Positions 7,366 through 34,586 of a stretch of DNA of 35,370 bases are shown here, one piece after another. Origin of the DNA: an uncultured Chromatiales bacterium (GTDB taxonomy: Bacteria > Pseudomonadota > Gammaproteobacteria > Steroidobacterales > BM003); NCBI GenBank assembly GCA_937128475.1, contig CAKZML010000261.1, positions 1 to 35,370 on the forward strand, in the 5' to 3' direction. The notes under the pieces were generated by a model, which saw only the letters and a list, made by a program, of their open reading frames with translations, did not search any database and had not been told where the DNA came from. The translations under genes were made by a program, and so were the position numbers. The stretch's first letter is position 1. The number at the start of each line of letters is the position of its first letter.

Positions 7366-8853
7366 GTGAATTCAGGGACACTGGTCACGACTCGGATATG
7401 TATTGTCGGCGCGGGCTTTTCAGGCCTGGGCATGGGAATTCGATTGCGACAGGTGGGCATTACTGATTTTGTGATCATTGATAGTGGGCCGGAAGTGGGG
7501 GGTACCTGGCGGGATAATCACTATCCCGGTTGCGCCTGCGATGTGCCTTCCCGACTGTACTCATTTTCCTTCCAGCCCAACCCGGACTGGTCCAGAACAT
7601 ATTCGCCCCAGTCCGAGATATGGGCTTACCTGAAAGCCTGTGTGGAACAGGGTGGACTGGCCTCCCACATCTATTTCAATCGCAAGCTTCGGCGGGCCAG
7701 CTATAGCGAGCAAGATGCCCGATGGCGGCTTGAGTGTGGAGATGGCCAGCGCTATGAATGCCAGGTTTTGATTTCTGCCATGGGCGGTTTAAGCAGGCCA
7801 GCCATGCCGTCCATACCCGGCCTGGAACGTTTTTGCGGTCCGGCATTTCACTCGTCAAACTGGCGCCACGATGTGGACTTGGCGGGCAAGACTGTCGGGG
7901 TGATTGGCACCGGCGCGAGTGCTATTCAGTTTGTCCCCCAAATAGCTCCCCAGGCGAAAAAGCTGGTGTTGTTCCAGCGCACGCCGCCGTGGATCCTGCC
8001 TCGCAGGGACCGGGCCATCGGGCAGGGTTGGAAGCGAATGTATGGCCGATTCCCGTTGATCCAGAAACTGGTCAGGGGTTTGACCTACCTGCGGATGGAA
8101 AGTCGGGCCCTGGGTTTGAGTCGTTATCCGAGTTTGCTGCGGATCATGGAAAAAAGAGCGCGCAGACACATCGCGGTGAGTATAGGAGACAAGACTCTTC
8201 GGGAGCAGGTGACACCCCGGTTTCGCCTGGGTTGCAAGCGCGTTTTGTTGTCGGACGATTACTATCCAGCCCTGGCCCGTTCGAATGTACACCTGGAAAC
8301 GGCCTCCATTGCATCGGTTCAGGAGCAAGGGGTGAAGCTGGACAATGGTGAGTTTGTGGCGCTGGACGTGCTGGTGTACGGAACCGGATTCCAGGCCACC
8401 AGTCCCGTGCCCGCCGGGTTGATATTCGGGCGCAAAAGCCAGGACCTGACCCAGGCCTGGCGCTGTGGGCCGGAGGCGTACCTGGGGACGACGGTTGCTG
8501 GATTCCCGAATATGTTCATGCTGATGGGCCCTAATACGGGCCTTGGTCATAACTCCATCGTTTACATGATCGAGTCCCAGATTAGCTATGTCCTGGGCTG
8601 TCTTGCGACCATGCAGGAACAGGAACTGCGTAGCGTCGAAGTCAGGCCGGAGGTGCAGGCGGCGTTTAATTCGGACTTGCAGGCTGAGTTCGAGGGTTCG
8701 GTGTGGACCAGTGGATGCAAAAGCTGGTACTTGCATGAGAGCGGAAAGAATACGACTCTTTGGCCTGGGATGAGTTATCAGTTCAGACGCAGGATGAAGC
8801 GTTTTAGCTTGTCCGATTTTTGCTGGGAAGCCAAGGAGCACAAAGCGGTCTAA
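7366..8853 (+). CDS. Flavin-containing / Baeyer-Villiger-type monooxygenase
   Basis: This is a 495-residue FAD/NADPH enzyme. An N-terminal Rossmann motif GAGFSG (15-20) binds [20 protein letters not shown] is the typical BVMO continuation. [11 protein letters not shown] (156-166) fits the BVMO fingerprint FxGxxxHxxxW, although Arg follows where Pro or Asp is usual. GTGASA (181-186) is the NADPH Rossmann motif, and [10 protein letters not shown] closes the core. Such enzymes insert oxygen into ketones or oxidise heteroatoms, but the substrate is unknown. The start is a GTG with AGGA 7 nt upstream; the nearby ATG is out of frame. Its stop overlaps the next start (TAATG at 8851-8855), so it is translationally coupled to the DUF1538 genes. 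Confidence 0.88.
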
Positions 8854-9584
8854 TGCAGTCGTTAAAAAATATTCTTAGACCGTTATTGCAAAGTAGCAAG
8901 GACCTTGCCCCGATTGTCCTGGTGATTGCATTTTTCCAGCTGGCAGTTCTCAAGCAGCCGATACCCAACCTGGGTGGTCTGGTGTTTGGCCTGGTCCTGG
9001 TGATGTTGGGCCTGGCCTTTTTCGTACGCGGGTTGGACCTGGGTCTTTTCCCTCTTGGTGAGGCCATGGCCTACGCCTTCGCAAGGAAAGGCTCCTTGTT
9101 CTGGTTGCTTTGTTTTGCGTTTGCCCTGGGTTTTGGCACTACCGCGGCTGAACCTGCGTTGATCGCCATCGCCGATGAGGCGGCTGCCGTGGCGGCTACT
9201 GGCGGGATGATCGTCGACACCCTCGACTCCCGGGAACAGTACGCCCTGGGCCTGCGTTTTACTGTGGCCCTGTCGGTAGGGTGCGCCATCATGATCGGTG
9301 TCTGGCGAATCCTTAAAGGCTGGCCCCTGCACCTGATGATTGCCTGCGGTTATGTGTTGGTGGTGATCATGACGGCCATTGCGCCCCCGGAGATTATCGG
9401 CATTGCCTATGACTCCGGTGGGGTGACTACTTCCACCATCACGGTACCCCTGGTGACCGCCCTGGGCGTGGGCCTGGCCTCGTCACTGCAGGGCAGGAGT
9501 CCCTTGTTGGACGGCTTCGGCCTGATTGCCTTCGCATCCTTGCTGCCAATGATATTCGTGATGGCCTACGGAATGATTATCTGA
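8853..9584 (+). CDS. DUF1538 family membrane protein, first subunit
   Basis: The start is the ATG overlapping the monooxygenase stop, giving 243 residues. The protein is almost wholly hydrophobic with about six or seven membrane spans. Two conserved glycine/threonine loops stand out: [11 protein letters not shown] (93-103) and [16 protein letters not shown] (186-201). Both are DUF1538 family hallmarks and are shared with the next gene product. The family has no established function that I know. Polar Gly-Thr-Thr breaks inside helices, each near a Pro, resemble the discontinuous helices of ion or solute transporters, so a transport role is inferred. It overlaps the next gene by one base (TGATG), which suggests equal expression of two paralogous subunits. 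Confidence 0.85.
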
Positions 9585-10411
9585 TGCCCTCCCTGGATCA
9601 AATGCTCGCGGTCTTGTTAAGCACCTTGCGTGACGTGATGCCCATTGCCGTTATCCTGACAGTCTTCCAGGTGTTTGTAATTCGCCGGGCAGTGCCAAAT
9701 CTTGGCCAGGTGCTAGCGGGATTTGTCTATGTAGTGATTGGTCTTACCCTGTTCCTGATTGGACTGGAGCAGGCCCTGTTCCCGGTGGGCAGGACAATGG
9801 CCGGGCAGTTTACCGATCCCGAATTCCTGGGGTTGGCGGGTGCGGAAGGTGGCGAGGCTCATCACTGGATGTCGTACTTGTGGCTATACCTGTTCGCGTT
9901 TTCGATCGGATTCAGTACCACTATCGCCGAGCCTGCTCTGATTGCCGTGGCTCACAAGGCCAACTCCCTGTCTGGTGGAGCCATCGGGCAGACAGGGTTG
10001 CGTATTGCCGTCGCGATCGGGGTGGCGCTGGGAATCACCCTGGGCGTGTATCGCATTGTGATCGGTTTCCCCATTCACTATTTCATCATCGCCGGCTATA
10101 TCGTGGTGGTGGTGCAAACATTCTTTGCGCCCAAGTCCATCGTACCGCTGGCCTATGACTCCGGTGGCGTCACCACCTCCACCGTGACGGTGCCCCTGGT
10201 GGCGGCCCTTGGCCTGGGGCTGGCCGAAAACATTCCCGGTCGTAACCCACTGGTGGATGGCTTCGGGTTGATTGCCTTCGCCAGTCTTTTCCCGATTATT
10301 TCTGTCATGACCTATGCGCAGCTCTCTGAGTGGCGAGCTCGAAGGGTACTGACAAAGAACGCTGATGAATCAAAACCGAACGATGAAGAACGTTCCCAAG
10401 GAGAACAGTAA
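9584..10411 (+). CDS. DUF1538 family membrane protein, second subunit
   Basis: This 275-residue paralogue of the upstream protein has the same order of motifs: FQVFVIRRAVPNLGQV near the N-terminus, GFSTTIAEPAL (109-119), [16 protein letters not shown] (191-206) and [14 protein letters not shown] near the end. It differs by an extra loop of about 16 residues before the first motif (GLAGAEGGEAHH) and a charged cytoplasmic tail (ERSQGEQ). Separate, tightly coupled genes for two unequal copies suggest an obligate heteromer. Its stop overlaps the start of the PII-like gene (TAATG), and AAGGAGAA in its own tail serves as that gene's ribosome-binding site. Function is unknown and a transporter subunit is my inference. 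Confidence 0.85.
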   Translation: MPSLDQMLAVLLSTLRDVMPIAVILTVFQVFVIRRAVPNLGQVLAGFVYVVIGLTLFLIGLEQALFPVGRTMAGQFTDPEFLGLAGAEGGEAHHWMSYLWLYLFAFSIGFSTTIAEPALIAVAHKANSLSGGAIGQTGLRIAVAIGVALGITLGVYRIVIGFPIHYFIIAGYIVVVVQTFFAPKSIVPLAYDSGGVTTSTVTVPLVAALGLGLAENIPGRNPLVDGFGLIAFASLFPIISVMTYAQLSEWRARRVLTKNADESKPNDEERSQGEQ

Positions 10412-10764
10412 TGAGGTTCAAATTAATCATTGCCTTTGTGGAGGACTCCAAGACAAAGGCTATTATGGAAGCTGCCAGGCAGGCAGGTGCGACGGGTTGT
10501 ACCGTGCTAACCAATGCCCGCGGTCAGGGGGTGGAAGAGAAAACCACATTCCTGGGGCTGGCGCTGGAAAGCCAGCGGGACATGGTGCTTATGCTGGTAG
10601 AAGAGCACCGGGCACGTGGAATCCTGGAAGAAATTGCCACCGCTGGGAAATTCGATATGACCCCGGGTACCGGCATCGCATTCCAGGTTGATGTTGAAGA
10701 TGCTTTGGGCGTGTTGCACCAGGCTGAACTGATCGCACCTTCGCTGGAGGAGGCGGAACTATGA
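10411..10764 (+). CDS. PII-like signalling protein linked to DUF1538
   Basis: The protein has 117 residues, the length of GlnB/GlnK, with a PII-type beta-alpha-beta start (MRFKLIIAFVEDSKTKAIMEAARQAGA). The T-loop region is short and reads NARGQGVEEKTTFLG, without the uridylylated tyrosine. The B-loop signature TGKIGDGKIF is replaced by AGKFDMTPGTGIAF (79-91). It is therefore a divergent PII-fold protein, not a nitrogen PII. PII proteins bind nucleotides between trimer subunits and dock on membrane partners (AmtB, SbtA), so this one probably gates the DUF1538 pair; that is inference. It is coupled at both ends, TAATG to DUF1538 and ATGA to the CBS gene. Confidence 0.82.
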   Translation: MRFKLIIAFVEDSKTKAIMEAARQAGATGCTVLTNARGQGVEEKTTFLGLALESQRDMVLMLVEEHRARGILEEIATAGKFDMTPGTGIAFQVDVEDALGVLHQAELIAPSLEEAEL

Positions 10765-11201
10765 GCGAGAATACTCCCACCATCATTGCCGATGTGATGA
10801 ACAATAATTTTGTCCTGGCCCACGGGCTGACGACGGTTTCCGAGGCGCTGCAGATCATGCGCGAGAAGGGCGTGAATTTCCTGATCGTTGACCGGCGGGA
10901 CAAGACTGATGAGTACGGCATCATGCTGGCATCGGATATTGCCAAGAAAGTCCTGGCGAAGGATCGTTCGCCGGATCGCATCAATATTTACGAGCTGATG
11001 TCCAAACCCGTGCTGTTCGTTCGGCCCGGAATGGATATTCGTTACTGCGCGCGGTTCTTCGATCGCTTTGAGATTTCCACCTCCCCGGTCATTTCAAAGG
11101 GACAGATCGTGGGTATCGTGTCGTATAACGACCTGGTGCTCAAAGGCATGGCTCCGTTTACCGGAGAGCGGGCGCCCAGGGATGCGGATTCTGACGACTA
11201 G
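10761..11201 (+). CDS. Two-CBS-domain protein, last gene of the DUF1538 operon
   Basis: This small soluble protein of 146 residues has two CBS motifs: ADVMNNNFVLAHGLTTVSEA to LASDIAKKVL (about 10-68), then YELMSKPVLFVRPGMDI to IVGIVSYNDLVLKGM (about 77-133). CBS pairs (Bateman modules) bind AMP, ATP, SAM or similar ligands and often gate transporters and channels. The gene overlaps the PII-like gene by ATGA, so it belongs to the same translationally coupled operon. No other domain is fused to it. It would be a second nucleotide-type input on the DUF1538 complex; the ligand is unknown. The gene converges on hemY with a 21-bp gap. Confidence 0.87.
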   Translation: MSENTPTIIADVMNNNFVLAHGLTTVSEALQIMREKGVNFLIVDRRDKTDEYGIMLASDIAKKVLAKDRSPDRINIYELMSKPVLFVRPGMDIRYCARFFDRFEISTSPVISKGQIVGIVSYNDLVLKGMAPFTGERAPRDADSDD

Positions 11202-20435: not shown

Positions 20436-20948
20436 GTGTTGAACGTATTGTTTTTGTGTACCGGGAATTCGGCCCGAAGTGTTCTGGCCGAGGCCCTGAT
20501 GAATCACTGGGGAGCCGGTCGGTTTCGTGCCTACAGCGCAGGCAGCCAACCCACTGGAAAGGTAAATCCCTGTGCCGTGACATTGCTCGCGGAGATGGGC
20601 ATGACGGATTACCAGATGCGCAGCAAGAGCTGGGACGAATTCGCCGGACCTGGCGCCCCCCAAATGGACCTGATCTTTACCGTGTGCGGCAGCGCGGCGG
20701 CTGAAACCTGCCCGGTATGGCCCGGTCACCCGGCGTCCGCTCACTGGGGTACCGAGGATCCGGCTGCGGTGCGCGGCAGTGAGTCCCTCAAGATGGATGC
20801 ATTTAGGCACGCTTTCAGGGTGCTCCAGCACCGGGTGAAGGCCTGCCTAGAGTTACCGGTGGATAACATGACGCCTGACGAGCTCAACCTGGCTTTGTCA
20901 GAGATTGGAACCAGCCTGCCTGATCTGGAAACAGGAAATAACCCGTGA
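20436..20948 (+). CDS. arsC: Arsenate reductase, low-molecular-weight phosphatase type
   Basis: The start chosen is GTG at 20436 with AGGAG 7 nt upstream. The upstream ATG at 20370 would add 22 unrelated residues. The 170-residue enzyme opens with the P-loop VLFLCTGNSARS (nucleophile Cys8, Arg14). It later shows FTVCGSAAAETCPVWPG (Cys84 and Cys92) and the acid loop WGTEDPAAV (Asp108). These cysteines form the disulfide cascade of LMW-PTP-type arsenate reductases. The enzyme reduces arsenate to arsenite in the cytoplasm, recycled by thioredoxin or glutaredoxin. It overlaps the arsenite exporter gene by four bases (GTGA). No arsR gene is beside it. Confidence 0.9.
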   Translation: MLNVLFLCTGNSARSVLAEALMNHWGAGRFRAYSAGSQPTGKVNPCAVTLLAEMGMTDYQMRSKSWDEFAGPGAPQMDLIFTVCGSAAAETCPVWPGHPASAHWGTEDPAAVRGSESLKMDAFRHAFRVLQHRVKACLELPVDNMTPDELNLALSEIGTSLPDLETGNNP

Positions 20949-22027
20949 ATAAGAAGACTGAAGCCCTGGGCAAAGAGCCTGCGAAAATGAGTGTGTTTGA
21001 ACGCTACCTGAGTATCTGGGTCGGCCTTTGCATCGTGGTTGGGGTGGTACTGGGTCACTTTTTGCCGGGGCCGGTTCAGGCCCTGGGAGAAATGAAGATT
21101 GCGGAAGTGAATCTTCCGGTGGCGGTACTGATCTGGCTGATGATTATCCCGATGCTGCTCAAGGTGGACTTCGGGGCGCTGCACACGGTGCGGGAGCATT
21201 GGCGGGGGATAGGCGTAACCGTCTTCGTGAACTGGGCTATCAAGCCGTTCTCCATGGCGCTGCTGGGCTGGTTTTTTATTCGTGGTGTTTTTTCCGAGTA
21301 CCTGCCCGCGGACCAGATAGATTCCTATATCGCCGGATTGATCATTCTCGCCGCGGCGCCATGCACCGCCATGGTGTTTGTCTGGAGCAACTTGTGCGAC
21401 GGTGAGCCCAACTTCACCCTGAGCCAGGTGGCCCTGAACGACACCATTATGGTGTTTGCTTTCGCGCCTATCGTGGGGCTGTTGCTGGGTTTGTCATCCA
21501 TCGTCGTGCCCTGGGATACCTTGCTGCTATCGGTGGTGCTGTACATCGTGGTGCCGGTGGTGATCTCGCAAATCTGGCGCCGTTCGCTGCTGACCAGGGG
21601 CCCCCAGGCACTGCAGTCTGTGCTGGACCGTTTACAGCCCGTGTCGCTGGTGTCCTTGCTGGCAACCCTGGTGCTGTTGTTTGCCTTCCAGGGTGAACAA
21701 ATCGTATCCCAGCCCATGATTATCGTGTTGCTGGCCGTACCCATCACCATCCAGGTGTATTTCAATTCCGGACTGGCTTATCTGCTTAATCGCAAATTCG
21801 GTGTTGCACATTGTGTGGCCGGTCCGTCAGCGCTGATTGGTGCGAGCAATTTCTTCGAACTCGCGGTGGCCGCAGCGATCAGCTTGTTTGGTTTTGAGTC
21901 AGGCGCCGCCCTGGCTACCGTGGTGGGTGTGCTGATCGAAGTGCCGGTGATGTTGTCAGTGGTGTGGATCGTGAATGGCAGCAAGGGCTGGTACGAAAAA
22001 GGCCTGCCGGGACGTTCTGCGTCCTGA
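20945..22027 (+). CDS. arsB: Arsenite efflux permease, Acr3 family
   Basis: The 360-residue inner-membrane protein has ten hydrophobic segments. The GTG start overlaps the arsC stop, and the first 17 residues are polar. The Acr3 hallmark AAPCTAMVFVWS carries the essential transport cysteine (Cys140) in a membrane segment. The C-terminal half has GASNFFELAVAAAISLFG and a conserved Glu in GVLIEVPVM. This is the bile/arsenite/riboflavin-transporter-superfamily Acr3 type and not the unrelated E. coli ArsB, so acr3 is the alternative symbol. It exports arsenite made by ArsC using the proton-motive force. The next gene, a thioredoxin-like protein, converges 2 bp away. Confidence 0.92.
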   Translation: MNKKTEALGKEPAKMSVFERYLSIWVGLCIVVGVVLGHFLPGPVQALGEMKIAEVNLPVAVLIWLMIIPMLLKVDFGALHTVREHWRGIGVTVFVNWAIKPFSMALLGWFFIRGVFSEYLPADQIDSYIAGLIILAAAPCTAMVFVWSNLCDGEPNFTLSQVALNDTIMVFAFAPIVGLLLGLSSIVVPWDTLLLSVVLYIVVPVVISQIWRRSLLTRGPQALQSVLDRLQPVSLVSLLATLVLLFAFQGEQIVSQPMIIVLLAVPITIQVYFNSGLAYLLNRKFGVAHCVAGPSALIGASNFFELAVAAAISLFGFESGAALATVVGVLIEVPVMLSVVWIVNGSKGWYEKGLPGRSAS

Positions 22028-24654: not shown

Positions 24655-24938
24655 ATTTTTGGTACTGGCGAAGTCTTCGTAGAGGCCAGTCTGGGCCTTG
24701 CTTCGCCGCCCCCGGTCCGCCGTTCCGGCGGGGGGGAGTCACTCATTCGAACTTATCAATATCAGGCTGATGCTTTAGCCTTAGCGGCCTTGAGTGCATA
24801 AATACAACAGGAACAAGGCGAAAAACTTACTGTTTTTGCAGTGGTTTTCAAAGATTCGCCGCTATGGCTATAGGTATCCGCCACAGTTGACATTAAGGTG
24901 CTCAAATCGAAAACTTCGCACCGTGAGGGGAGAGTATT
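24655..24938. other. Intergenic region before crcB; GC hairpin and possible promoter, no riboswitch recognised
   Basis: A 6-bp stem CCGCCG/CGGCGG with a TTC loop (24717-24731) sits in a G/C-rich patch and may be a weak terminator, but it has no T run. A second loose inverted pair, GGCGAA (24817-24822) and TTCGCC (24855-24860), lies further on. A perfect TTGACA at 24887-24892 could be a -35 with a poor -10 near 24910. I searched for the fluoride riboswitch consensus expected near crcB and did not find it. Confidence 0.4.
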
Positions 24939-25334
24939 TTGAAGACCTTTTTGAGCTTGGCTCCTATAGCCTACGTAGGTGTCGGGGGAATGCTGGGGGC
25001 GATTTGCCGCTACTTGCTATCCCTGGCGGGTCAAGCTCTGGCAATAAGCTTCCCGGCGGGAACCCTGGTATCGAATTTGGCCGGCTGTTTCCTGATCGGT
25101 GTGATCATGCAATTGGTTTTCAAGACGGAGTTGCCTTCAACCGAGATGCGGCTTTTGCTGGCTACCGGTTTTTGTGGGGGCTTTACGACACTTTCCTCCT
25201 TTGTGTACGAGTTGCACGCCTACATGAGCGAGCACGACTATTTTTTGGCCGCGGCGTATATGACCGCGACATTGGTAGGCGCCATGGCATGTTTTTACCT
25301 GGGCATGCTCCTGGTGTCGGCCATTTTGAGGTAG
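24939..25334 (+). CDS. crcB: Fluoride channel CrcB/Fluc
   Basis: The 131-residue membrane protein has four hydrophobic segments. The start is a TTG at 24939 with GAGGGGAGA just upstream; no early in-frame ATG exists. Family signatures are GGMLGAICRYLLS (17-29), the pore asparagine stretch GTLVSNLAGCFLIG and the phenylalanine/threonine stretch TGFCGGFTTLSSFVYE. Fluc proteins form dual-topology dimers that export fluoride. This gene heads a tight array: DUF190 begins 4 nt after its stop and nqrA 18 nt after that. Cotranscription with the sodium pump is therefore likely. No fluoride riboswitch was recognised upstream. Confidence 0.9.
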   Translation: MKTFLSLAPIAYVGVGGMLGAICRYLLSLAGQALAISFPAGTLVSNLAGCFLIGVIMQLVFKTELPSTEMRLLLATGFCGGFTTLSSFVYELHAYMSEHDYFLAAAYMTATLVGAMACFYLGMLLVSAILR

Positions 25335-25338
25335 TTCG

Positions 25339-25713
25339 GTGAATTTGACGGGTCAAGCGATGCTAATGCGCATATTTGTGGGGGAGGCCGACAAGGTTGG
25401 CCACCAGCCGCTGTATGAACGCATCGTGCAAAGCGCTCGCTCGGCCGGTTTGGCCGGTGCGACGGCCTGGAAGGGGATGACCGGGTTCGGGGCAACCAGC
25501 AGGATTCGAACTGCCAGGGTCCTGGACTTGTCGGCAGATTTGCCGGTAGTCATCGAGATAGTGGATGAACAGGCGAAACTGGATGTGTTCCAGGGCGTAC
25601 TGGATGATTTATTTGAGCAGGCCGATTGTGGTGGCCTGGTGACGTTAGAGAGTGTGAACGTGCGCCGCTACCTGGCCAGTAATGGTCGGGCAAATGCGGT
25701 GGAACTTTCCTAA
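25339..25713 (+). CDS. DUF190 PII-like protein paired with CrcB
   Basis: The GTG at 25339 gives MNLTGQAMLMRIFVGEADK. The alignment with the family opening (LTGE..LLRIFIGESDK) supports it over the internal ATG at 25360. The protein has 124 residues. Further family marks are LYERIVQSARSAGLAGATAW, GFGATSRIRTARVLDLS and DLPVVIEIVDEQAK. DUF190 proteins have a PII-like fold and are commonly encoded next to crcB. A role as nucleotide-sensing partner or cytoplasmic modulator of fluoride export is assumed in the literature but not firmly shown. It sits directly before nqrA with an 18-nt gap, which is unusual for Nqr operons known to me. Confidence 0.88.
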   Translation: MNLTGQAMLMRIFVGEADKVGHQPLYERIVQSARSAGLAGATAWKGMTGFGATSRIRTARVLDLSADLPVVIEIVDEQAKLDVFQGVLDDLFEQADCGGLVTLESVNVRRYLASNGRANAVELS

Positions 25714-25731
25714 ATACTACGACGGGGTCTT

Positions 25732-27090
25732 GTGGCAAATACCATGCAGATTGAAATTAAAAAGGGTTTGAACTTACCGATTTCCGGAGTCCCGGAGCAG
25801 GTGATCGAGAGCCGGGAAACAAGCACCGTGGCGCTTATCGGATTCGACTATGTCGGCATGAAGCCGAAGATGTTGATTGAAGAAGGTCAGCAGGTCCGCC
25901 TGGGGCAGCCAATGTTCCAGGATAAAGCCAATCCGGAAGTGGTCTTTACCGCTCCGGGTACGGGTCTTATCGAGGCAGTTACCCGGGGACACAGGAGAGT
26001 GCTGCAATCCATAGTGATTCGCCTGTCCGGTGACGATCAGGTGACCTGGGACGCGGTGGGCGAACAAGGACTTGATTCGCTGGATGGCGAGCGGACCCGC
26101 AAGTTGTTGCTGGAGTCTGGTCTCTGGACAGCCTTGAGAACTCGTCCGTTTAGCAAGACACCGGTGCCGGGTACTGAGCCCATGGCGATTTTCGTCACCG
26201 CGATTGATACCGGTCCCCTGGCTGCCGATCCTGCAGTTGTGCTGCGCGGCCGTGAAAACGAGTTCAAGGCCGGCCTGAAGGCCCTGGGTACTCTGACCCC
26301 GGGCAAGGTTCATGTTTGCACAGCCCCGGAATTGACCCCTGTCATACCCGATGGCGAGAAATTCGAGCACAGCCAGTTCTCGGGACCCCATCCCGCCGGC
26401 CTGGTTGGTACTCACATTCATATGCTGCACCCGGTGGGCGCCAAGCGCATGGTTTGGCACATCGGTTACCAGGATGTGGTGGAGATTGGTCACTTGATGC
26501 TGACCGGCACCCTGGACCCGACCCGGATTATTTCCCTGGGTGGACCCAAGGTGAAACATCCTCGCCTGATCCGCACCCGGGTGGGTGCCTCGACCAGGGA
26601 ACTGGTTAGAGACCAATTGGATGCGGGAGCAAGCCGGGTGATTTCCGGTTCAGTGCTGTCGGGTCGTCGAGCCTCTGACTGGAGCGCCTACCTGGGCCGT
26701 TTCCATACCCAGATCTCGGTGATTGGTGACGAGGTGGAGCGCAAGTTCCTGGCGTTTACGCGACCGGGGCCGGAAAAGTTTTCAGTCACCCGCACGTTCG
26801 CCTCAAGCTGGTTTGGTCGTTCCAGGCTGTTTGGCTTCACGACCTCCCAGGAAGGAAGTCCGAGGGCGATGGTGCCCATCGGCTCTTACGAGGCGGTCAT
26901 GCCGCTGGATATTTTGCCCACCCAGTTATTGCGGGCGGTGTTGGTGCTGGACACTGATAGCGCACAGCAGCTGGGCTGCCTGGAGCTGGATGAAGAAGAT
27001 CTGGCTTTGTGCTCCTACGTGTGTCCCAGCAAGTATGACTTCGGTCCGGTGTTGCGGAGTAACCTTGATTTGATTGAGAGGGAAGGCTGA
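25732..27090 (+). CDS. nqrA: Na+-translocating NADH:quinone reductase subunit A
   Basis: The 452-residue peripheral cytoplasmic subunit opens [17 protein letters not shown], the standard NqrA start. The start is either GTG 25732, with GGGG 4 nt before it, or ATG 25744, which gives the canonical opening. I list the longer form without a firm preference. Further marks are [37 protein letters not shown] and the C-terminal [18 protein letters not shown]. NqrA has a biotin/lipoyl-like fold and contacts NqrB near the quinone site, and it carries no cofactor. It is the first nqr gene, and its stop overlaps the nqrB start (TGATG). Confidence 0.95.
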
Positions 27091-28307
27091 TGCGTGCTCT
27101 GCGTCGTTTGCTGGATAATCTTCACCCGCTGTTTGCCAAGGGTGGTCGGCTAGAGAGTCTCTATGCTGTCTACGAAATGGTGGACACGCTGTTCTTTTCA
27201 CCTGCTGACCGTACCAGGTTGGCTCCTCATGTTCGTGATGGCGTCGACCTGAAGCGAGTCATGACTGCAGTAGTTTTTGCAGCCATGCCCGCAGCGGTGT
27301 TCGGAATCTGGAACGTGGGTTTCCAGGCCAACACGGCTATCCAGGCCTTGTCACTGGCTGGACCCGAAGACTGGCGCGGCCTTGTGCTGACAGTACTGAA
27401 CGTGAGCTACAACCCAGGCAGCATGTGGGACAACATGTGGTATGGCATGGTGTATTTCCTGCCTATCTACGCGGTGACCCTGGCGGCTGGTGGCTTCTGG
27501 GAAGTGGTCTTCGCCGCAGTTCGGAACCACGAGGTTAACGAAGGCTTCCTGGTTACCTCCTTGTTGTTCGCCCTGATTCTGCCGCCGGCCATTCCTCTTT
27601 GGCAGGTAGCGCTGGGCATCAGCTTTGGTGTGGTGCTGGGTAAAGAGGTCTTCGGTGGTACCGGAAAGAACTTCCTTAATCCTGCCCTGACCGGTCGTGC
27701 ATTCCTGTTCTTTGCCTATCCGGCCCAGATCTCGGGTGACGCGGTATGGACGGCGGTTGACGGCTTCTCCGGCGCAACTCCCCTGGCCGTGGGCGCCAGC
27801 GGCGGCATGGCAGCTATCGCCAGTTCCGACGTGAGCTGGATGGATGCCTTCGTTGGTGTGGTGCAGGGCGACCTGGGTTCCACCTCGGCAATGTTGTGCA
27901 TACTCGGCGGCTTGATCCTGATCTTCTTCCGCATCGCATCCTGGCGAATCATCCTGGGCGTATTCCTGGGTATGGTGGCAACCAGTCTGCTGTTTAACTT
28001 CTTTGGCACCAACTACACCCCGATGGCCGGCATGCCCTGGTATTGGCACCTGGTGGTGGGTGGATTTGCCTTCGGCATGATGTTCATGGCTACCGACCCG
28101 GTCAGTGCGTCCATGAGTAATACCGGCCGATGGATATACGGTGCATTGATTGGCGCGCTCACGATAATTATTCGAGTCGCCAATCCCGCGTTCCCCGAAG
28201 GAATCATGCTGGCCATTTTGTTTGCCAACCTGGTTGCTCCACTAATTGATTATGGCGTCGTCAAGGCGAATATCAGCCGTCGTCGCCGCAGGGAGGGTTT
28301 GGCATGA
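27090..28307 (+). CDS. nqrB: Na+-translocating NADH:quinone reductase subunit B
   Basis: The 405-residue integral membrane subunit has about ten spans. A conserved N-terminal part leads into GGFWEVVFAAVRNHEVNEGF (134-153), the region tied to quinone and HQNO binding. The covalent FMN site is VDGFSGATPLA with Thr230. EGIMLAILFANLVAPLIDYG closes the membrane core and a basic tail follows (SRRRRREG). NqrB carries one FMN, the riboflavin site and the sodium path. FMN attachment needs the flavin transferase ApbE, whose gene is not in this window. nqrC overlaps by four bases. Confidence 0.96.
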   Translation: MRALRRLLDNLHPLFAKGGRLESLYAVYEMVDTLFFSPADRTRLAPHVRDGVDLKRVMTAVVFAAMPAAVFGIWNVGFQANTAIQALSLAGPEDWRGLVLTVLNVSYNPGSMWDNMWYGMVYFLPIYAVTLAAGGFWEVVFAAVRNHEVNEGFLVTSLLFALILPPAIPLWQVALGISFGVVLGKEVFGGTGKNFLNPALTGRAFLFFAYPAQISGDAVWTAVDGFSGATPLAVGASGGMAAIASSDVSWMDAFVGVVQGDLGSTSAMLCILGGLILIFFRIASWRIILGVFLGMVATSLLFNFFGTNYTPMAGMPWYWHLVVGGFAFGMMFMATDPVSASMSNTGRWIYGALIGALTIIIRVANPAFPEGIMLAILFANLVAPLIDYGVVKANISRRRRREGLA

Positions 28308-29092
28308 GTAACGATTCCTGGCAAAAAACGCTGTTGGTAGCGTTGGTGCTTTGCCTGGTGTTCTCTGTGTTGGTATCGGGTGCGGCCGTGGTGCTTCGCC
28401 CTACCCAGGAGGCTAACCAGCGCCTGGACGTGCAGCGCAATCTGCTGTTGGCCGCAGGCCTGGCAGAGGCTGGTGCCCCGGCTGACCTGGTTGGTGAGTT
28501 GATGGCTTCTGTTGAAGCCCAGATCATTGACCTGGATTCCGGTACCCAGAACACAGACGTCAATCCTGACACCTTCGACGCTATTTCTGCGGCACGTAAG
28601 CCGGCTACCAGCGAGGCGCTGGACTCGGAAGCTGACCTTGGTCGCATCAAGCGTCGGGCGAATATGGCAAAGGTCTATTTGCTCAAGAAAGAGGGTCAGT
28701 TAACCGGTGTTGTCTTGCCTGTCTATGGATCGGGTTTGTACTCGACTCTGTACGGCTTTATCGCCCTGGACGCTGACTTGAGAACGGTTCGTGGCCTGAA
28801 GTTCTACGAGCAGGGCGAGACCGCAGGCCTGGGTGCCGAGGTTGATAACCCCCGTTGGTTGGCCAAGTGGCCGGGCAAAATGGTGCTGGATGAAACCGGC
28901 GTTGCCAAGGTCGACGTGGTCAAGGGCGGAGTCAATCCTTCTTCACCAACGATCGCTTATGAGGTGGATGCTATTTCCGGCGCCACCCTGACCAGCAAGG
29001 GCGTCTCAGCCTTGCTGCAGTTCTGGCTGGGCCCTGATGGATTTGGTCCTTACCTTGCCAAGTTAAAAGCCCAACAGATGGAGGCTAGCTGA
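28304..29092 (+). CDS. nqrC: Na+-translocating NADH:quinone reductase subunit C
   Basis: The 262-residue subunit has one N-terminal membrane helix (about 9-31, [17 protein letters not shown]) and a large periplasmic FMN domain. The flavinylation motif is [14 protein letters not shown], with Thr228 the FMN-linked residue by analogy with Vibrio. [16 protein letters not shown] and [12 protein letters not shown] are other family marks. It passes electrons on through its covalent FMN within the complex. Its ATG overlaps the nqrB stop (ATGA), and nqrD starts one base after its stop. Confidence 0.95.
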
Positions 29093-29093
29093 A

Positions 29094-29752
<659 letters not shown>

Positions 29753-29753
<1 letters not shown>

Positions 29754-30361
29754 TGGATAGCCTATTTACACTTTTTATCCAGGTTGTCTTTGTTGAAAAT
29801 CTGGCACTGTCTTTCTTCCTTGGCATGTGTACCTTCCTGGCTGTGTCCAAGAAGGTCGACACCGCCATTGGTCTGGGTGCAGCGGTGATTGTTGTGCAGG
29901 CACTGACAGTGCCGATTAACAACATGATCTTCCAGTACCTGCTCAAGCCAGATGCACTGGAGTGGGCGGGAATCACCGGAGTGAATCTGGAGTTCCTTGG
30001 TCTGATCAGCTACATCGGCGTAATCGCCGCGCTGGTACAGATCCTTGAAATGACCCTGGACAAGTTTTTCCCTGCGCTGTATCACGCACTGGGAATCTTC
30101 CTTCCCCTGATTACGGTTAACTGCGCCATTCTTGGTGGCACGTTGTTCGTGGTTCGTCGTGATTACGACTTCGTACAGAGTGTTGTCTACGGCGTAGGCA
30201 GCGGCCTTGGGTGGGCTCTTGCGATCGTCATGCTGGCGGGTCTCAGGGAGAAGCTGAAGTATAGCGATGTACCTGATGGTCTCCAGGGGTTGGGAATTAC
30301 GTTTATTACTGTGGGCTTGATGTCCATGGCATTCATGTTGTTCGGTGGAATTCAGCTCTGA
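29753..30361 (+). CDS. nqrE: Na+-translocating NADH:quinone reductase subunit E
   Basis: The 202-residue membrane subunit resembles RnfA and has six spans. [20 protein letters not shown] (14-33) contains the first conserved Cys, and [11 protein letters not shown] the second, matching the pair in Nqr[20 protein letters not shown] is the family C-terminal stretch. Together NqrD and NqrE hold the iron centre inside the membrane between NqrF and NqrC. A 35-nt gap to nqrF is the largest inside the nqr cluster. Confidence 0.95.
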
Positions 30362-30396
30362 TCGTGTTGATCGGGGCCTAGCCGGGATAGTGGCAA

Positions 30397-31620
30397 ATGA
30401 CTGAAATTATTTTAGGAACTACTTTCTTTACCGGGATCATCCTGGTGCTGGTGGTTGTGATCCTGTTCTTCCGTTCCAAGCTGGTTGCATCCGGATCGGT
30501 AGATATAACTGTTAACGACGAGCGCGTACTGAAAGCGCCGGTGGGCAGCAAGTTGCTGGGCGCACTGGCGGATGCTGAACTGTTCGTACCCTCTGCATGT
30601 GGCGGTGGTGGTACTTGCGGCCAGTGTCGCGTGAAGATCAGCTCCGGTGGTGGAGTGATTCTTCCGACTGAGCTTTCCTCGATTAACAAGCGCGAAGCAG
30701 CAGAAGGCTGTCGCCTGGCTTGCCAGGTCGTGGTTAAAGAGGACATGAAGATCGAAGTGCCTGAAGAGGTGTTCGGTGTTCGCAAGTGGAACTGCAAAGT
30801 GCGCTCTAATCACAACGTGGCAACCTTCATCAAGGAATTGGTGATGGAGCTGCCCGAGGGTGAGGACGTTCCGTTCCGCGCCGGTGGTTATATCCAGATC
30901 GAGTGTCCTGCCCACAAGTTGAGCTTCTCCGAGTTCGACGTGGAAGAGGAATATCGCGAAGACTGGGATAAATACAAATTATGGGACCTGAAGTCCGAAG
31001 TGGATGAGCCCATGATGCGTGCGTATTCCATGGCAAGCTACCCGGGAGAGAAGGGCATTATCATGCTCAACGTGCGTATCGCTACGCCGCCTCCGGGCGC
31101 CTATGGCGAAGTTCCCCCGGGCAAGATGTCATCGTTCATCTTTAACCTGAAGCCGGGTGATGACGTGGTGATTTCTGGTCCCTATGGTGAATTCTTCGCC
31201 AGGGATACCGAAAACGAGATGGTGTTCATCGGTGGTGGCGCCGGTATGGCCCCCATGCGGTCGCATATCTTCGACCAGCTGCTTTCACTGGACAGCAAGC
31301 GTAAGATCAGCTTCTGGTATGGCGCTCGCAGCAAGCGTGAAATCTTCTACGCAGAAGAGTTCGATGAACTGGCCAAGAAGCACCCGAATTTTACCTGGAA
31401 TGTTGCTCTGTCCGATCCGATGCCGGAAGATAACTGGACTGGTCCTACAGGATTTATTCACCAGGTGGTGTATGACCTGTACCTGAAGGAACATCCTGCG
31501 CCAGAGGATTCCGAATACTATATGTGTGGACCGCCCATGATGAACTCTGCGGTAATCCACATGCTGGACGAGCAGGGTGTAGAGCCTGAAAACATCATGT
31601 TGGATGATTTCGGCGGCTAA
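30397..31620 (+). CDS. nqrF: Na+-translocating NADH:quinone reductase subunit F
   Basis: The 407-residue entry subunit has an N-terminal anchor helix (3-26). A 2Fe-2S domain follows with [11 protein letters not shown] (Cys68, 74, 77) and LACQ (Cys109). The FAD domain shows [12 protein letters not shown] (RxYS type). The NADH domain has [16 protein letters not shown] and [13 protein letters not shown]. It oxidises NADH and passes electrons to the iron centre of NqrD/E. The C-terminus ends in the usual MLDDFGG. nqrM begins 46 nt after the stop. Confidence 0.96.
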
Positions 31621-31666: not shown

Positions 31667-31840
31667 ATGGAATTTTTAGTAGCGTTTGCCGTATGTGCCT
31701 TAGCCCTTTTTGGGTGTGCTATCGGCGTGATGTTTGGACGTGACCCCTTAAAGGGTAGTTGTGGTGGCGTGGGTACTGACTGTCAGTGCACCAAGGCCGC
31801 GACGGGAACTTGCAGGAGACGCAACAATGCCCATCAGTAG
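31667..31840 (+). CDS. nqrM: Nqr maturation protein NqrM (DUF539)
   Basis: This short gene encodes 57 residues and is preceded by CAGGAGAGAGTGA. One membrane helix (about 3-22) is followed by the family core [19 protein letters not shown]. Cysteines lie at 10, 17, 32, 39, 41 and 49. NqrM is needed for assembly of functional Na+-NQR in Vibrio, probably by delivering iron for the NqrD/E centre. It directly follows nqrF, where apbE often comes first in other operons. Its last 14 nt overlap the start of the CBS gene in another frame. Confidence 0.9.
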
Positions 31841-32225
31841 TATCAAGGTTCGCGATTTTATGACGACCGATGTCATAACTCTCCGTCCGGATATGGAAGT
31901 CATGAAAGCGGTCGGCATCTTGATCGATCATGGCATTTCCGGCGCTCCGGTAGTGGATGAGCTTGGCGACGTGGTTGGTATGTTCACCGAGTTCGATTGC
32001 ATCAAGGCTGCCTTGCATGCCGGTTACCATGAAGATATGGCCGGTACGGTAAGTGATGTCATGGTCAAAGGCGTAGCCAGCGTTCATCCAGACACTTCAA
32101 TTCTCGACCTGGCAGAACGCTTCGTGAAAAAGCCATTCCGCCGTTTTCTGGTCATGCAGGACGAGCGCATGGTGGGCATGATTGCCCGTCGTGACGTGCT
32201 CAAGGCCCTGCGTAAAATTTACTAG
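31827..32225 (+). CDS. CBS-domain-pair protein at the end of the nqr array
   Basis: The start is the ATG at 31827, inside the end of nqrM, with GCAGGAGA upstream. The longer in-frame start would cover most of nqrM. The 132-residue soluble protein has two CBS motifs: [20 protein letters not shown] to [15 protein letters not shown] (8-66) and [17 protein letters not shown] to [14 protein letters not shown] (about 76-129). CBS pairs sense adenine nucleotides or SAM. Overlap with nqrM ties its expression to the sodium pump, but no direct role in Nqr is known to me. It resembles in design the CBS protein at 10761. Confidence 0.87.
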
Positions 32226-32322: not shown

Positions 32323-32422
32323 GCCTTAGGGGTGGCCTGGATGGCCTGAGATACCGACTGCGAGTGTGGTGGTTGGGAACCCTTTGAACCTGATCCGGAT
32401 AGTGCCGGCGTAGGGACTAGGT
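32323..32422 (+). promoter_or_regulatory. TPP riboswitch (THI element)
   Basis: The conserved aptamer parts are present in order: GCCTTAGGGGTG (P1/P2 entry), CTGAGAT (32346-32352), ACCCTTTGAACCTGATC (32379-32395), then GGATAGTGCCGGCGTAGGGA and CTAGG closing P1. A TATATT at 32310-32315 would place transcription start at the aptamer's first bases. Downstream, ATCTCC (32466-32471) can pair with GGAGAT (32485-32490), which holds the ribosome-binding site of the TonB receptor. That suggests translational control. Thiamine pyrophosphate binding would lower expression of the uptake operon. Confidence 0.95.
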
Positions 32423-32498
32423 GCCTTCCTTTCGGCAAACCAGCCACCTCATCGCTCACTACCGGATCTCCCGGATGATTCCCTGGAGATTCTGTTAC

Positions 32499-34586
32499 AT
32501 GAATAGACTGAGCCGCCTGTTGATGGCCACCGCTACTTGCACACTCGCCTGTGCATCGGTTGGCAATGCCCAGGATTCCACTGATCCCCGGATGGAGACC
32601 CTGACGGTCACCGCATCGCTGAGAGAGGCTTCCGAGATGGAAACCGCCGCCAGCGTGAGCGTGCTTGATGAGGCGCTTATCAAGGAAGCCGGACAGCAGC
32701 ATTTTGAAAGCCTTTCCCAGATGGTTCCGAACCTGAACTGGGCGGGGGGTACGTCCAGGCCCCGGTATTTCCAGATTCGCGGAATTGGCGAGCGTAGCCA
32801 GTATGAAGGTGCTCCCAATCCTTCGGTGGGCTTCATTGTGGATGACATCGATTTCAGCGGAATGGGGGGCGTCGCCACCTTGTTCGATACTCGGCAGATC
32901 GAAGTGCTCAGGGGACCCCAGGGAACGGTCAATGGGGCGAATGCCCTGGCCGGTCTGATTTCAGTGCGGACTGTGGATCCGTCCGACAGCAATGAATTTA
33001 CCGCTGAGACCACCCTGGGCAGCGATGCCGCCCTTGGTGCAGGCCTGGCGTTTGGTGGCCCCCTTGGTGAGAGCCTCAGCTACCGGGTTGTTGCCCAGCA
33101 GTATTCCCAGGACGGATTTCGCGACAACGCCTACTTGGGCGCCAGTGATACCAACGGCCGGGATGAATTGACCACTCGGGGCAAGTTGCACTGGGAGGTG
33201 TCCGAGGACTTGCGGGTGAAGTTTACCGGCATGCTGGTTGACCTGGATAACGGGTATGACGCCTGGGCGATTGATAATTCCCTGACTACCCTTTCCGACA
33301 AGCCCGGCAAGGACAGCCAGCGTACCGCGGCCGGCGCCATGCGTATCGAGTGGGATGTGTCCGAGCAGGTTTCCCTGCTGAGTATCAGCACCCTGGCGGA
33401 CAGCGATGTGCTGTTCAGTTTCGATGGGGACTGGGGTAACGACGACAGTTGGGGGGTTAATGGGCCCTACGACTTTTTCTCCACCACCAATCGGCAACGT
33501 AACAGCATGAGCCAGGAACTGCGCCTGAGTTCTCGTCCGGGAGCGGAATTATTTTCCGGGACGACTGACTGGGTACTTGGTCTGTACGCACTGGACGTTG
33601 AGGAGAGCAACGACATCCTGGATACCTATAACGGTGATATCTACCGTTCCTTGTATTCCGATTACCAGGCCACCAACCTGGCGGTGTTCGGCCAGCTGGA
33701 TTCCCAACTGGCTCAGCAATGGAACCTGGCGGTGGGAGTGAGACTGGAACAGCGTGATGCCACGTACAGCGATAGCCAGGGGGTGAGTTTCGAACCCTCC
33801 GATAATATGCCCGGCGGTCATCTCACCCTGAGTTACGACATGGCGCCCCTGACCCGCCTGTATTCCACCCTGTCCCGGGGTTACAAGGCGGGGGGCTTCA
33901 ACATCAATCCCTCGATTCCTGCCGAGCGTCGGGAGTTTGATCCCGAGTATTTGTGGAACCTGGAGTTCGGTCTGAAGACTGCCATGCCTGACAAGGGCTT
34001 GCGTGGATCCATGGCGGTGTTTTACATGGACCGGGATGACGCCCAGGTCAGCACCTCCTTCCAGGATGATCCAAGCGATCCGCTGTCATTTACGTTCTAC
34101 AACGACAATGCGGCCGAGGGTGTGAACTACGGTCTGGAGGCAGAGGTGCAGTGGGACTTCGCCGACGGTTGGACCTTGCACGGTGCGCTGGGTTTGCTGC
34201 ACGCCGAGTTCAAGAACTACCAGGCCGGGACTCGCGTACTCGATGGTCGGGAGCAGGCCCATGCGCCTTCCTGGAACTACAACCTGGGGCTGAGCTATCA
34301 CTCAAGCGAAGGCTATTACGCCCGGGCCGACCTGGGCGGCAAGGACAGTTTCTACTTTTCCGACAGCCACGAGCAGCAATCCACTCGCTACAGCCTGCTA
34401 AATGCCCGGCTGGGCTACCAGGGGCTGCATTGGGGTGTCCAGGTCTGGGCCAGGAACCTGCTGGATGAAGAGTACCAGGTGCGTGGTTTCTTCTTCGCCA
34501 ATGAACCCCCGGACTGGATTGAAAAGCTCTACACCCGCCAGGGTGATCCGCGCCAGGCTGGTGTGACCCTCAGTTATCGCTACTAG
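32499..34586 (+). CDS. TonB-dependent outer-membrane receptor, probably for thiamine
   Basis: The start at ATG 32499 gives 695 residues with a signal peptide (MNRLSRLLMATATCTLACAS, cleavage near GNAQD). A TonB-box-like METLTVTA lies at 32-39. The plug domain shows GTSRPRYFQIRGIGERSQY and IEVLRGPQGTVNGANALAG. The 22-strand barrel includes TRLYSTLSRGYKAGGFNIN and ends in LSYRY with a terminal aromatic residue. Substrate thiamine is inferred from the TPP riboswitch upstream and the thiamine-binding and PnuT genes downstream. It resembles the predicted THI-box TonB receptors of other marine proteobacteria. Uptake would be powered by TonB-ExbBD encoded elsewhere. Confidence 0.92.
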   Translation: MNRLSRLLMATATCTLACASVGNAQDSTDPRMETLTVTASLREASEMETAASVSVLDEALIKEAGQQHFESLSQMVPNLNWAGGTSRPRYFQIRGIGERSQYEGAPNPSVGFIVDDIDFSGMGGVATLFDTRQIEVLRGPQGTVNGANALAGLISVRTVDPSDSNEFTAETTLGSDAALGAGLAFGGPLGESLSYRVVAQQYSQDGFRDNAYLGASDTNGRDELTTRGKLHWEVSEDLRVKFTGMLVDLDNGYDAWAIDNSLTTLSDKPGKDSQRTAAGAMRIEWDVSEQVSLLSISTLADSDVLFSFDGDWGNDDSWGVNGPYDFFSTTNRQRNSMSQELRLSSRPGAELFSGTTDWVLGLYALDVEESNDILDTYNGDIYRSLYSDYQATNLAVFGQLDSQLAQQWNLAVGVRLEQRDATYSDSQGVSFEPSDNMPGGHLTLSYDMAPLTRLYSTLSRGYKAGGFNINPSIPAERREFDPEYLWNLEFGLKTAMPDKGLRGSMAVFYMDRDDAQVSTSFQDDPSDPLSFTFYNDNAAEGVNYGLEAEVQWDFADGWTLHGALGLLHAEFKNYQAGTRVLDGREQAHAPSWNYNLGLSYHSSEGYYARADLGGKDSFYFSDSHEQQSTRYSLLNARLGYQGLHWGVQVWARNLLDEEYQVRGFFFANEPPDWIEKLYTRQGDPRQAGVTLSYRY

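Follow-up and report, generated by a model that had tools for sequence, protein, structure and literature searches.

We analysed a 35,370-nucleotide stretch of DNA from an uncultured Chromatiales bacterium (contig CAKZML010000261.1, positions 1 to 35,370 of the forward strand; hereafter the window), in which four overlapping genes encode two homologous DUF1538 membrane proteins, a PII-fold protein and a stand-alone pair of CBS domains. We consider it probable, at about two chances in three, that the operon specifies a monovalent cation/proton antiporter of the UmpAB type, gated by PII and CBS regulators of its own. The antiporter family is known, the strongly conserved regulatory gene pair beside it is unreported in the literature that we searched, and the two subunits are predicted from their charge patterns to form a heterodimer with inverted topology.

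Four overlapping genes encode a UmpAB-like pair, a PII-fold protein and a CBS pair

The genes cover 8853-11201 on the + strand and overlap by 1 base (umpA/umpB), 1 base (umpB/PII) and 4 bases (PII/CBS), and the ATG start of umpA at 8853 uses the A of the TAA stop codon of the preceding gene. The products were assigned as follows.

8853-9584, + strand: umpA-like DUF1538 membrane protein (PF07556, 223.7 bits; NF041627, 370.5 bits), with seven predicted helices, N-in/C-out by charge bias
9584-10411, + strand: umpB-like DUF1538 membrane protein (PF07556, 233.1 bits; NF041628, 342.2 bits), with an AlphaFold2 model, seven predicted helices, N-out/C-in by charge bias, and a charged C-terminal tail
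10411-10764, + strand: PII-fold protein (PF00543, 45.1 bits; Foldseek), of a UmpAB-linked subfamily separate from GlnB/GlnK in the tree
10761-11201, + strand: stand-alone CBS-domain pair (PF00571, 63.1 bits, in two stretches)

All four proteins exceed the curated Pfam cut-offs, which are 22.6 bits for DUF1538 (PF07556), 25 bits for P-II (PF00543) and 24 bits for CBS (PF00571). An earlier reading of the window by a model that saw only the sequence (the original prediction) had described four genes with one- to four-base overlaps encoding a DUF1538 pair, a divergent PII protein and a CBS pair, and both the coordinates and the Pfam scores agree with it.

NCBIfam names the DUF1538 pair UmpA and UmpB, subunits of a Na,Li,K/H(+) antiporter. 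The best model was that of UmpA for the first window protein and that of UmpB for the second, with full-length matches in the correct gene order. According to the main text of PMC5484666 (2017), UmpAB of Halomonas zhaodongensis forms a heterodimer in the membrane, each subunit having seven predicted helices, and in E. coli KNabc it carries out Na+(Li+,K+)/H+ antiport that depends on pH. The original prediction had proposed an undescribed heteromeric DUF1538 transporter with two sensors. A two-subunit transporter with two linked sensor-type proteins stands, but "undescribed" has to be given up, since a DUF1538 pair had been described in 2017 as UmpAB. Likewise, the substrate had been called open, whereas antiport of these cations is on record for the Halomonas proteins, and nothing was found in favour of the small anion that had been suggested. 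The main text of that paper makes no mention of PII, CBS, topology, antiparallel or inverted. In the literature that we searched, which held few subscription papers and no preprints and was judged by title and the start of the abstract, no paper tied DUF1538 or UmpAB to PII or CBS.

PII is a near-constant gene partner of DUF1538

Of the 398 genomes in a phylum sample, 126 had DUF1538, as did 76 of the 229 in a class-level sample and all four in a family sample that included the window's genome. The domain was also seen in Campylobacterota and Bacillota. Survey 1 took loci from 104 phylum-sample genomes, three family relatives, Sulfurospirillum and Sulfurovum contigs, seven plasmid records and the window. 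Once L040 had been excluded as an apparent duplicate of L046, with a contig of equal length, it comprised 124 DUF1538 units, 26 of them fused, in 121 loci. PII was encoded immediately downstream on the same strand in 118 of the 124 units, and CBS in 68. Survey 2, a replication, used one locus each from 60 of the 76 positive class-sample genomes, namely the 59 with the highest DUF1538 scores (two already-used genomes omitted) and G483, which scored highest against the UmpA model. It leans to the commonest type, with one locus per genome and with 14 lower-scoring positives left out. Two loci (L200 and L279) reach a contig edge, leaving 58 that could be judged. PII lay downstream on the same strand in all 58, in one case (L266) 1,388 bases away, and CBS was present in 57, L265 being the exception. 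The A-B-PII-CBS order was also found in G483, whose UmpA score of 408 bits is the best of the class sample.

The window's genome carries three PF00543 genes in 3.06 Mb, the PII gene of the operon included, so this adjacency is far beyond chance. Moreover, 101 of the 125 PII-CBS pairs in the surveyed loci had a spacing of exactly -4, and another 10 had a spacing of -1. The original prediction had taken DUF1538 pairs found mostly without PII or CBS neighbours as evidence against itself, and the surveys gave the opposite result, strongly so for PII and more variably for CBS. Thus the PII partner is near-constant and the CBS partner lineage-dependent.

Five architectures were seen. Architecture I is that of the window, with separate umpA, umpB, PII and CBS genes. 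In architecture II, which includes the Sulfurospirillum and Sulfurovum contigs, a fused A-B protein of about 500 residues is followed by PII and CBS. Architecture III has a fused A-B protein of about 570-600 residues and PII, often with a second, weaker PII gene after it; in L131-L134 a fused DUF1538 protein of about 600 residues precedes two consecutive PII genes, the second more divergent. Architecture IV joins a fused A-B protein to a tandem double PII of about 220 residues and was found in four of five Bacillota plasmid records (L164-L168), the fifth having a longer open frame. PII is annotated in three of these five records; our own profile finds two PII stretches in the double protein, and Pfam finds one P-II stretch in L165. 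A PII doubled in this way would alter the usual trimer geometry. Architecture V, which includes Methylocystis and Chelativorans, has umpA, umpB and PII without CBS. The PII linkage therefore persists when UmpA and UmpB are fused and reaches Bacillota, with flanking genes that are otherwise very different.

The linked PII proteins form a subfamily separate from GlnB/GlnK

In a tree, 27 canonical PII proteins, taken from 12 of the same genomes, formed one clade (100/100) against the UmpAB-linked and lone PII proteins. The branch between the two groups was 3.94 changes per column, from few columns and with uncertain rooting and inner branches. Across 174 PII domains, residues of the canonical chain were largely kept at Thr29 (163), Gly35 (171), Gly37 (161), Gly87 (146) and Gly89 (169), which we take to be positions near the adenine site of canonical PII. 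In contrast, Gln39, Tyr51, Lys90, Arg101 and Arg103, presumably the canonical GlnB/GlnK marks (2-oxoglutarate and phosphate contacts, with Tyr51 in the T-loop), were mostly replaced. The Lys90 position is Ile or Val in 138 of the 174 domains, the Arg101 position is Gly in 148, and tyrosine occurs in 7 at position 51, which sits in a gapped stretch. The window PII has E, L, I, G and L at these five positions and so is not a canonical GlnB/GlnK protein. This residue comparison agrees in substance with the original prediction, in which the T-loop tyrosine and a standard B-loop were said to be absent. One reading is that an adenine-type site may persist here without the usual phosphate and 2-oxoglutarate contacts.

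An AlphaFold2 model of the window PII had low to middling confidence (predicted local distance difference test, pLDDT, 60.3). Foldseek with this model gave a best E value of 4.9e-5, to GlnK1, and 178 matches at E <=0.001. The window protein is accordingly placed in the PII superfamily by its profile match and its predicted PII fold.

For the CBS protein, we take the ribose-binding motif of CBS nucleotide sensors to be G-x-x-S/T-x-x-D. The second CBS stretch carries GIVSYND, and the first carries GIMLASD, without S/T at the motif place. A second stand-alone CBS pair is encoded elsewhere in the window (31761-32225, + strand), between nqrF and a gene for a TonB-dependent receptor (32421-34586).

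UmpA and UmpB show opposite charge patterns

We compared the distribution of charged residues in a single alignment of 162 UmpA and 162 UmpB domains. These came from 160 loci, namely those of survey 1 together with the first 40 of survey 2, and excluded the duplicate L040 and a fragment, L117. The same alignment columns showed opposite patterns in the two subunits. Lys and Arg were concentrated at the N-terminus and in loops 2, 4 and 6 of UmpA, and at the C-terminus and in loops 1, 3 and 5 of UmpB. The bias was positive in 160 of the 162 UmpA domains and negative in 160 of the 162 UmpB domains. The contrary row in each group belongs to one locus, L198, where frames were ordered by start and A and B are probably swapped; both rows were retained in the counts. 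After clustering at 60% identity the bias held in 18 of 19 UmpA and 23 of 25 UmpB domains, and with the tails removed in 17 of 19 and 23 of 25. Following the positive-inside rule, the simplest reading is therefore that UmpA and UmpB, each with seven helices, probably form a heterodimer in which they lie in opposite orientations. An inverted topology would also suit the natural A-B fusions, whose linker would then lie outside.

In both subunits two acidic residues, which in UmpB numbering are Glu116 of an AEP motif and Asp192 of a YDSGG motif, show 98-100% conservation. In an AlphaFold2 model of UmpB, which is of moderate quality (pLDDT 71.8; predicted template-modelling score, pTM, 0.63; 8 sequences), helix breaks occur at 115-116 and 199-201. 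The conserved Glu and Asp, at or near breaks of two predicted helices, could be ion or proton sites. A DUF1538 profile search of the PDB gave no sequence relative. No relative was found in viral contigs with the single alignment used, and phage records gave six partial matches without annotation.

A probable gated antiporter and its alternatives

We propose the following mechanism, in which the parts played by PII and CBS are read from the gene linkage, the overlaps and the analogy with GlnK and SbtB. UmpA and UmpB, as homologous seven-helix proteins in opposite orientation, would exchange Na+, Li+ or K+ for H+. The dedicated PII-fold protein, probably trimeric like other PII proteins, would dock at the cytoplasmic face through a short T-loop, and it would open or close the antiporter in response to a small ligand. 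This ligand would probably be an adenine nucleotide, bound through fewer phosphate contacts than in GlnK. The CBS pair, where present, would be a second ligand sensor working together with PII, and cation and pH homeostasis would in this way be coupled to the energy or nucleotide state of the cell. PII is near-constant and CBS frequent beside umpAB, which therefore suggests that many bacteria switch this exchanger by an intracellular signal. We lean slightly towards the wider proposal of a widespread class of inverted-topology antiporters gated by their own PII subfamily, often together with CBS, through which an adenylate-type signal unrelated to nitrogen would directly control Na+/K+ and pH homeostasis.

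Several results weigh against a gated antiporter, and they are given here with the alternatives on which they bear. PII and CBS might act elsewhere, on an enzyme or a transcription factor, and share an operon with umpAB through one stress response. In the main text of PMC5484666, the antiport of Halomonas UmpAB was obtained from a clone described without PII or CBS, so UmpAB is active in E. coli without its own regulators, which are not required for activity. In survey 1, 56 of the 124 units had no CBS, and six had no PII directly 3' (L078, L113, L115, L158, L096 and the second unit of L083). L096 stops at a contig edge, the second unit of L083 has PII on its other side, and the remaining four belong to f60/f61. 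PII proteins of the same subfamily also occur away from DUF1538. Among the best 120 PII matches, at least 103 bits each and counted by hand, 95 adjoin a DUF1538 match, 19 do not and six could not be judged (G257, G227, G039, G159, G087 and G119). The lone PII genes fall in families f38, f48 and f61. Sixteen of the 19 loci were retrieved (all except G100, G076 and G037), and 14 of these held no DUF1538 in the retrieved stretch (L169-L174, L176-L179, L181-L183 and L188), the other two (L175 and L180) beginning at a contig edge with the upstream side unseen. However, in three of the five lone-PII loci whose neighbours were viewed (L172, L181 and L182) an SH3-domain gene lies upstream, and in two of these three an amino-acid-kinase (ArgB-like) gene lies beyond it. 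G009 (L055) has the order kinase, SH3, umpA, umpB, PII, so the lone PII proteins may be relicts of the operon after loss of umpAB. The persistence of PII beside DUF1538 among very different flanking genes also argues against a target elsewhere, and we regard such a target as unlikely.

Another alternative is that the DUF1538 pair moves a different substrate, the Halomonas antiport being a side activity or clade-specific. The window proteins score under the NCBIfam equivalog cut-offs (370.5 against 490 bits for UmpA, 342.2 against 500 for UmpB). That of UmpA was reached by none of the 229 class-sample genomes, the top score being the 408 bits of G483. The work on Halomonas presents itself, in its main text, as the first functional report for the DUF1538 family (PMC5484666). 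The UmpB model matched no solved fold, with a best PDB E value of 0.91 in Foldseek and a best Z of 5.7 over 66 residues in VIA-align, so that the model points to neither a known nor a new fold. Bearing on the gated antiporter itself, a link to a Na+ cycle was considered as general evidence and rejected. All 22 DUF1538-positive members of the window's class in the phylum sample carried nqrA (hand count, window's genome included), but the broader class sample showed no such association, DUF1538 occurring in 14 of the 37 genomes that matched nqrA strongly (at least 85 bits) and in 62 of the 192 others (Fisher p 0.57). Against a different substrate stand the full-length UmpA and UmpB matches in the correct gene order and the conservation, at 98% or more in both subunits, of the Glu116 and Asp192 positions, and we find a different substrate doubtful.

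As for the ligand, loss of the Lys90, Arg101 and Arg103 equivalents makes nucleotide binding by the PII protein itself uncertain, which again weighs against the mechanism above. The regulators might sense cyclic di-AMP, like the PII-like PstA/DarA and the CBS protein DarB of Bacillota. Receptors of cyclic di-AMP with PII-like and CBS folds occur in Bacillota, this nucleotide reportedly controls potassium homeostasis (PMC7900238 and PMC4316997), and the Bacillota DUF1538 loci bear a double PII. Against this, the cyclase domain PF02457 was absent from the window's genome and from 22 of the 25 DUF1538-PII genomes searched, which included all 18 of the class and were drawn from outside Bacillota. 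One of the three matches (G040) was weak, and the same search was positive in 11 of 14 control genomes. Cyclic di-AMP is thus an unlikely ligand in the genomes searched, and we give this explanation very little weight overall.

The gated antiporter remains our preferred reading. PII is the textbook nitrogen sensor. In these operons a divergent PII accompanies, nearly without exception, a family of ion/proton exchangers; should it gate them, cytoplasmic pH and Na+/K+ would respond directly to the energy or nucleotide state of the cell. The operon is also a compact system in which the action of two unrelated sensor folds on a single transporter can be studied. For UmpAB, for which no solved relative was found, it provides a clear testable topology.

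Neighbouring genes in the window

An FMO-like monooxygenase gene (7366-8853, + strand) has one base in common with umpA. Five other loci were compared: the two from the window's genus (L045 and L046) also have it next to umpA, and L043, L048 and L055 do not, so its candidacy as a module component was not supported, and it does not look like a member of the conserved module.

Further downstream, a DUF190 gene (25339-25713) is directly followed by the nqrA-F operon for the Na+-translocating NADH:quinone reductase, the whole spanning 25339-31620 on the + strand. DUF190 being a family with a PII-like fold, the window contains two PII-like genes, both of which adjoin a system for cation transport. 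Upstream of nqrA, a 182-residue frame (24794-25342, + strand) that neither Pfam nor NCBIfam recognises has 4 bases in common with the DUF190 gene. The window also encodes, at 20945-22027 (+ strand), an ACR3-family arsenite efflux transporter.

Comparison with known systems

In AmtB-GlnK, a PII-gated ammonium channel, a PII-fold gene stands beside a membrane transporter gene as it does in the window operon, and the structures that the window PII matched in fold include GlnK, also as solved in complex with AmtB. AmtB belongs to a transporter family different from DUF1538, and the window PII has other residues at the Gln39, Tyr51, Lys90, Arg101 and Arg103 positions. SbtB, a PII-like protein not devoted to nitrogen, is encoded beside the bicarbonate transporter SbtA. 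It matches the profile of the UmpAB-linked PII proteins weakly (E 0.022), and UmpAB differs from SbtA in being a pair of homologous subunits, often with a CBS partner. In MgtE and other CBS-regulated transporters the CBS pair is a cytoplasmic nucleotide sensor, whereas the CBS pair of the window operon is a separate protein. The UmpB model resembles MgtE chains weakly, with Z of 4.5 and 4.0 across some 110 residues, a level that chance matches also reach.

PsmrAB, an antiporter of the paired small multidrug resistance type, resembles UmpAB in having two homologous subunits encoded as a pair. It differs in having three helices per subunit against seven, and the main text of PMC5484666 reports no identity between it and UmpAB. 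Among the closest known systems is Halomonas UmpAB itself. The window proteins differ from it in falling below the equivalog cut-offs, and they share with it, as far as its main text describes the pair, two homologous DUF1538 genes overlapping by 1 base and a longer UmpB with a hydrophilic C-terminal tail.

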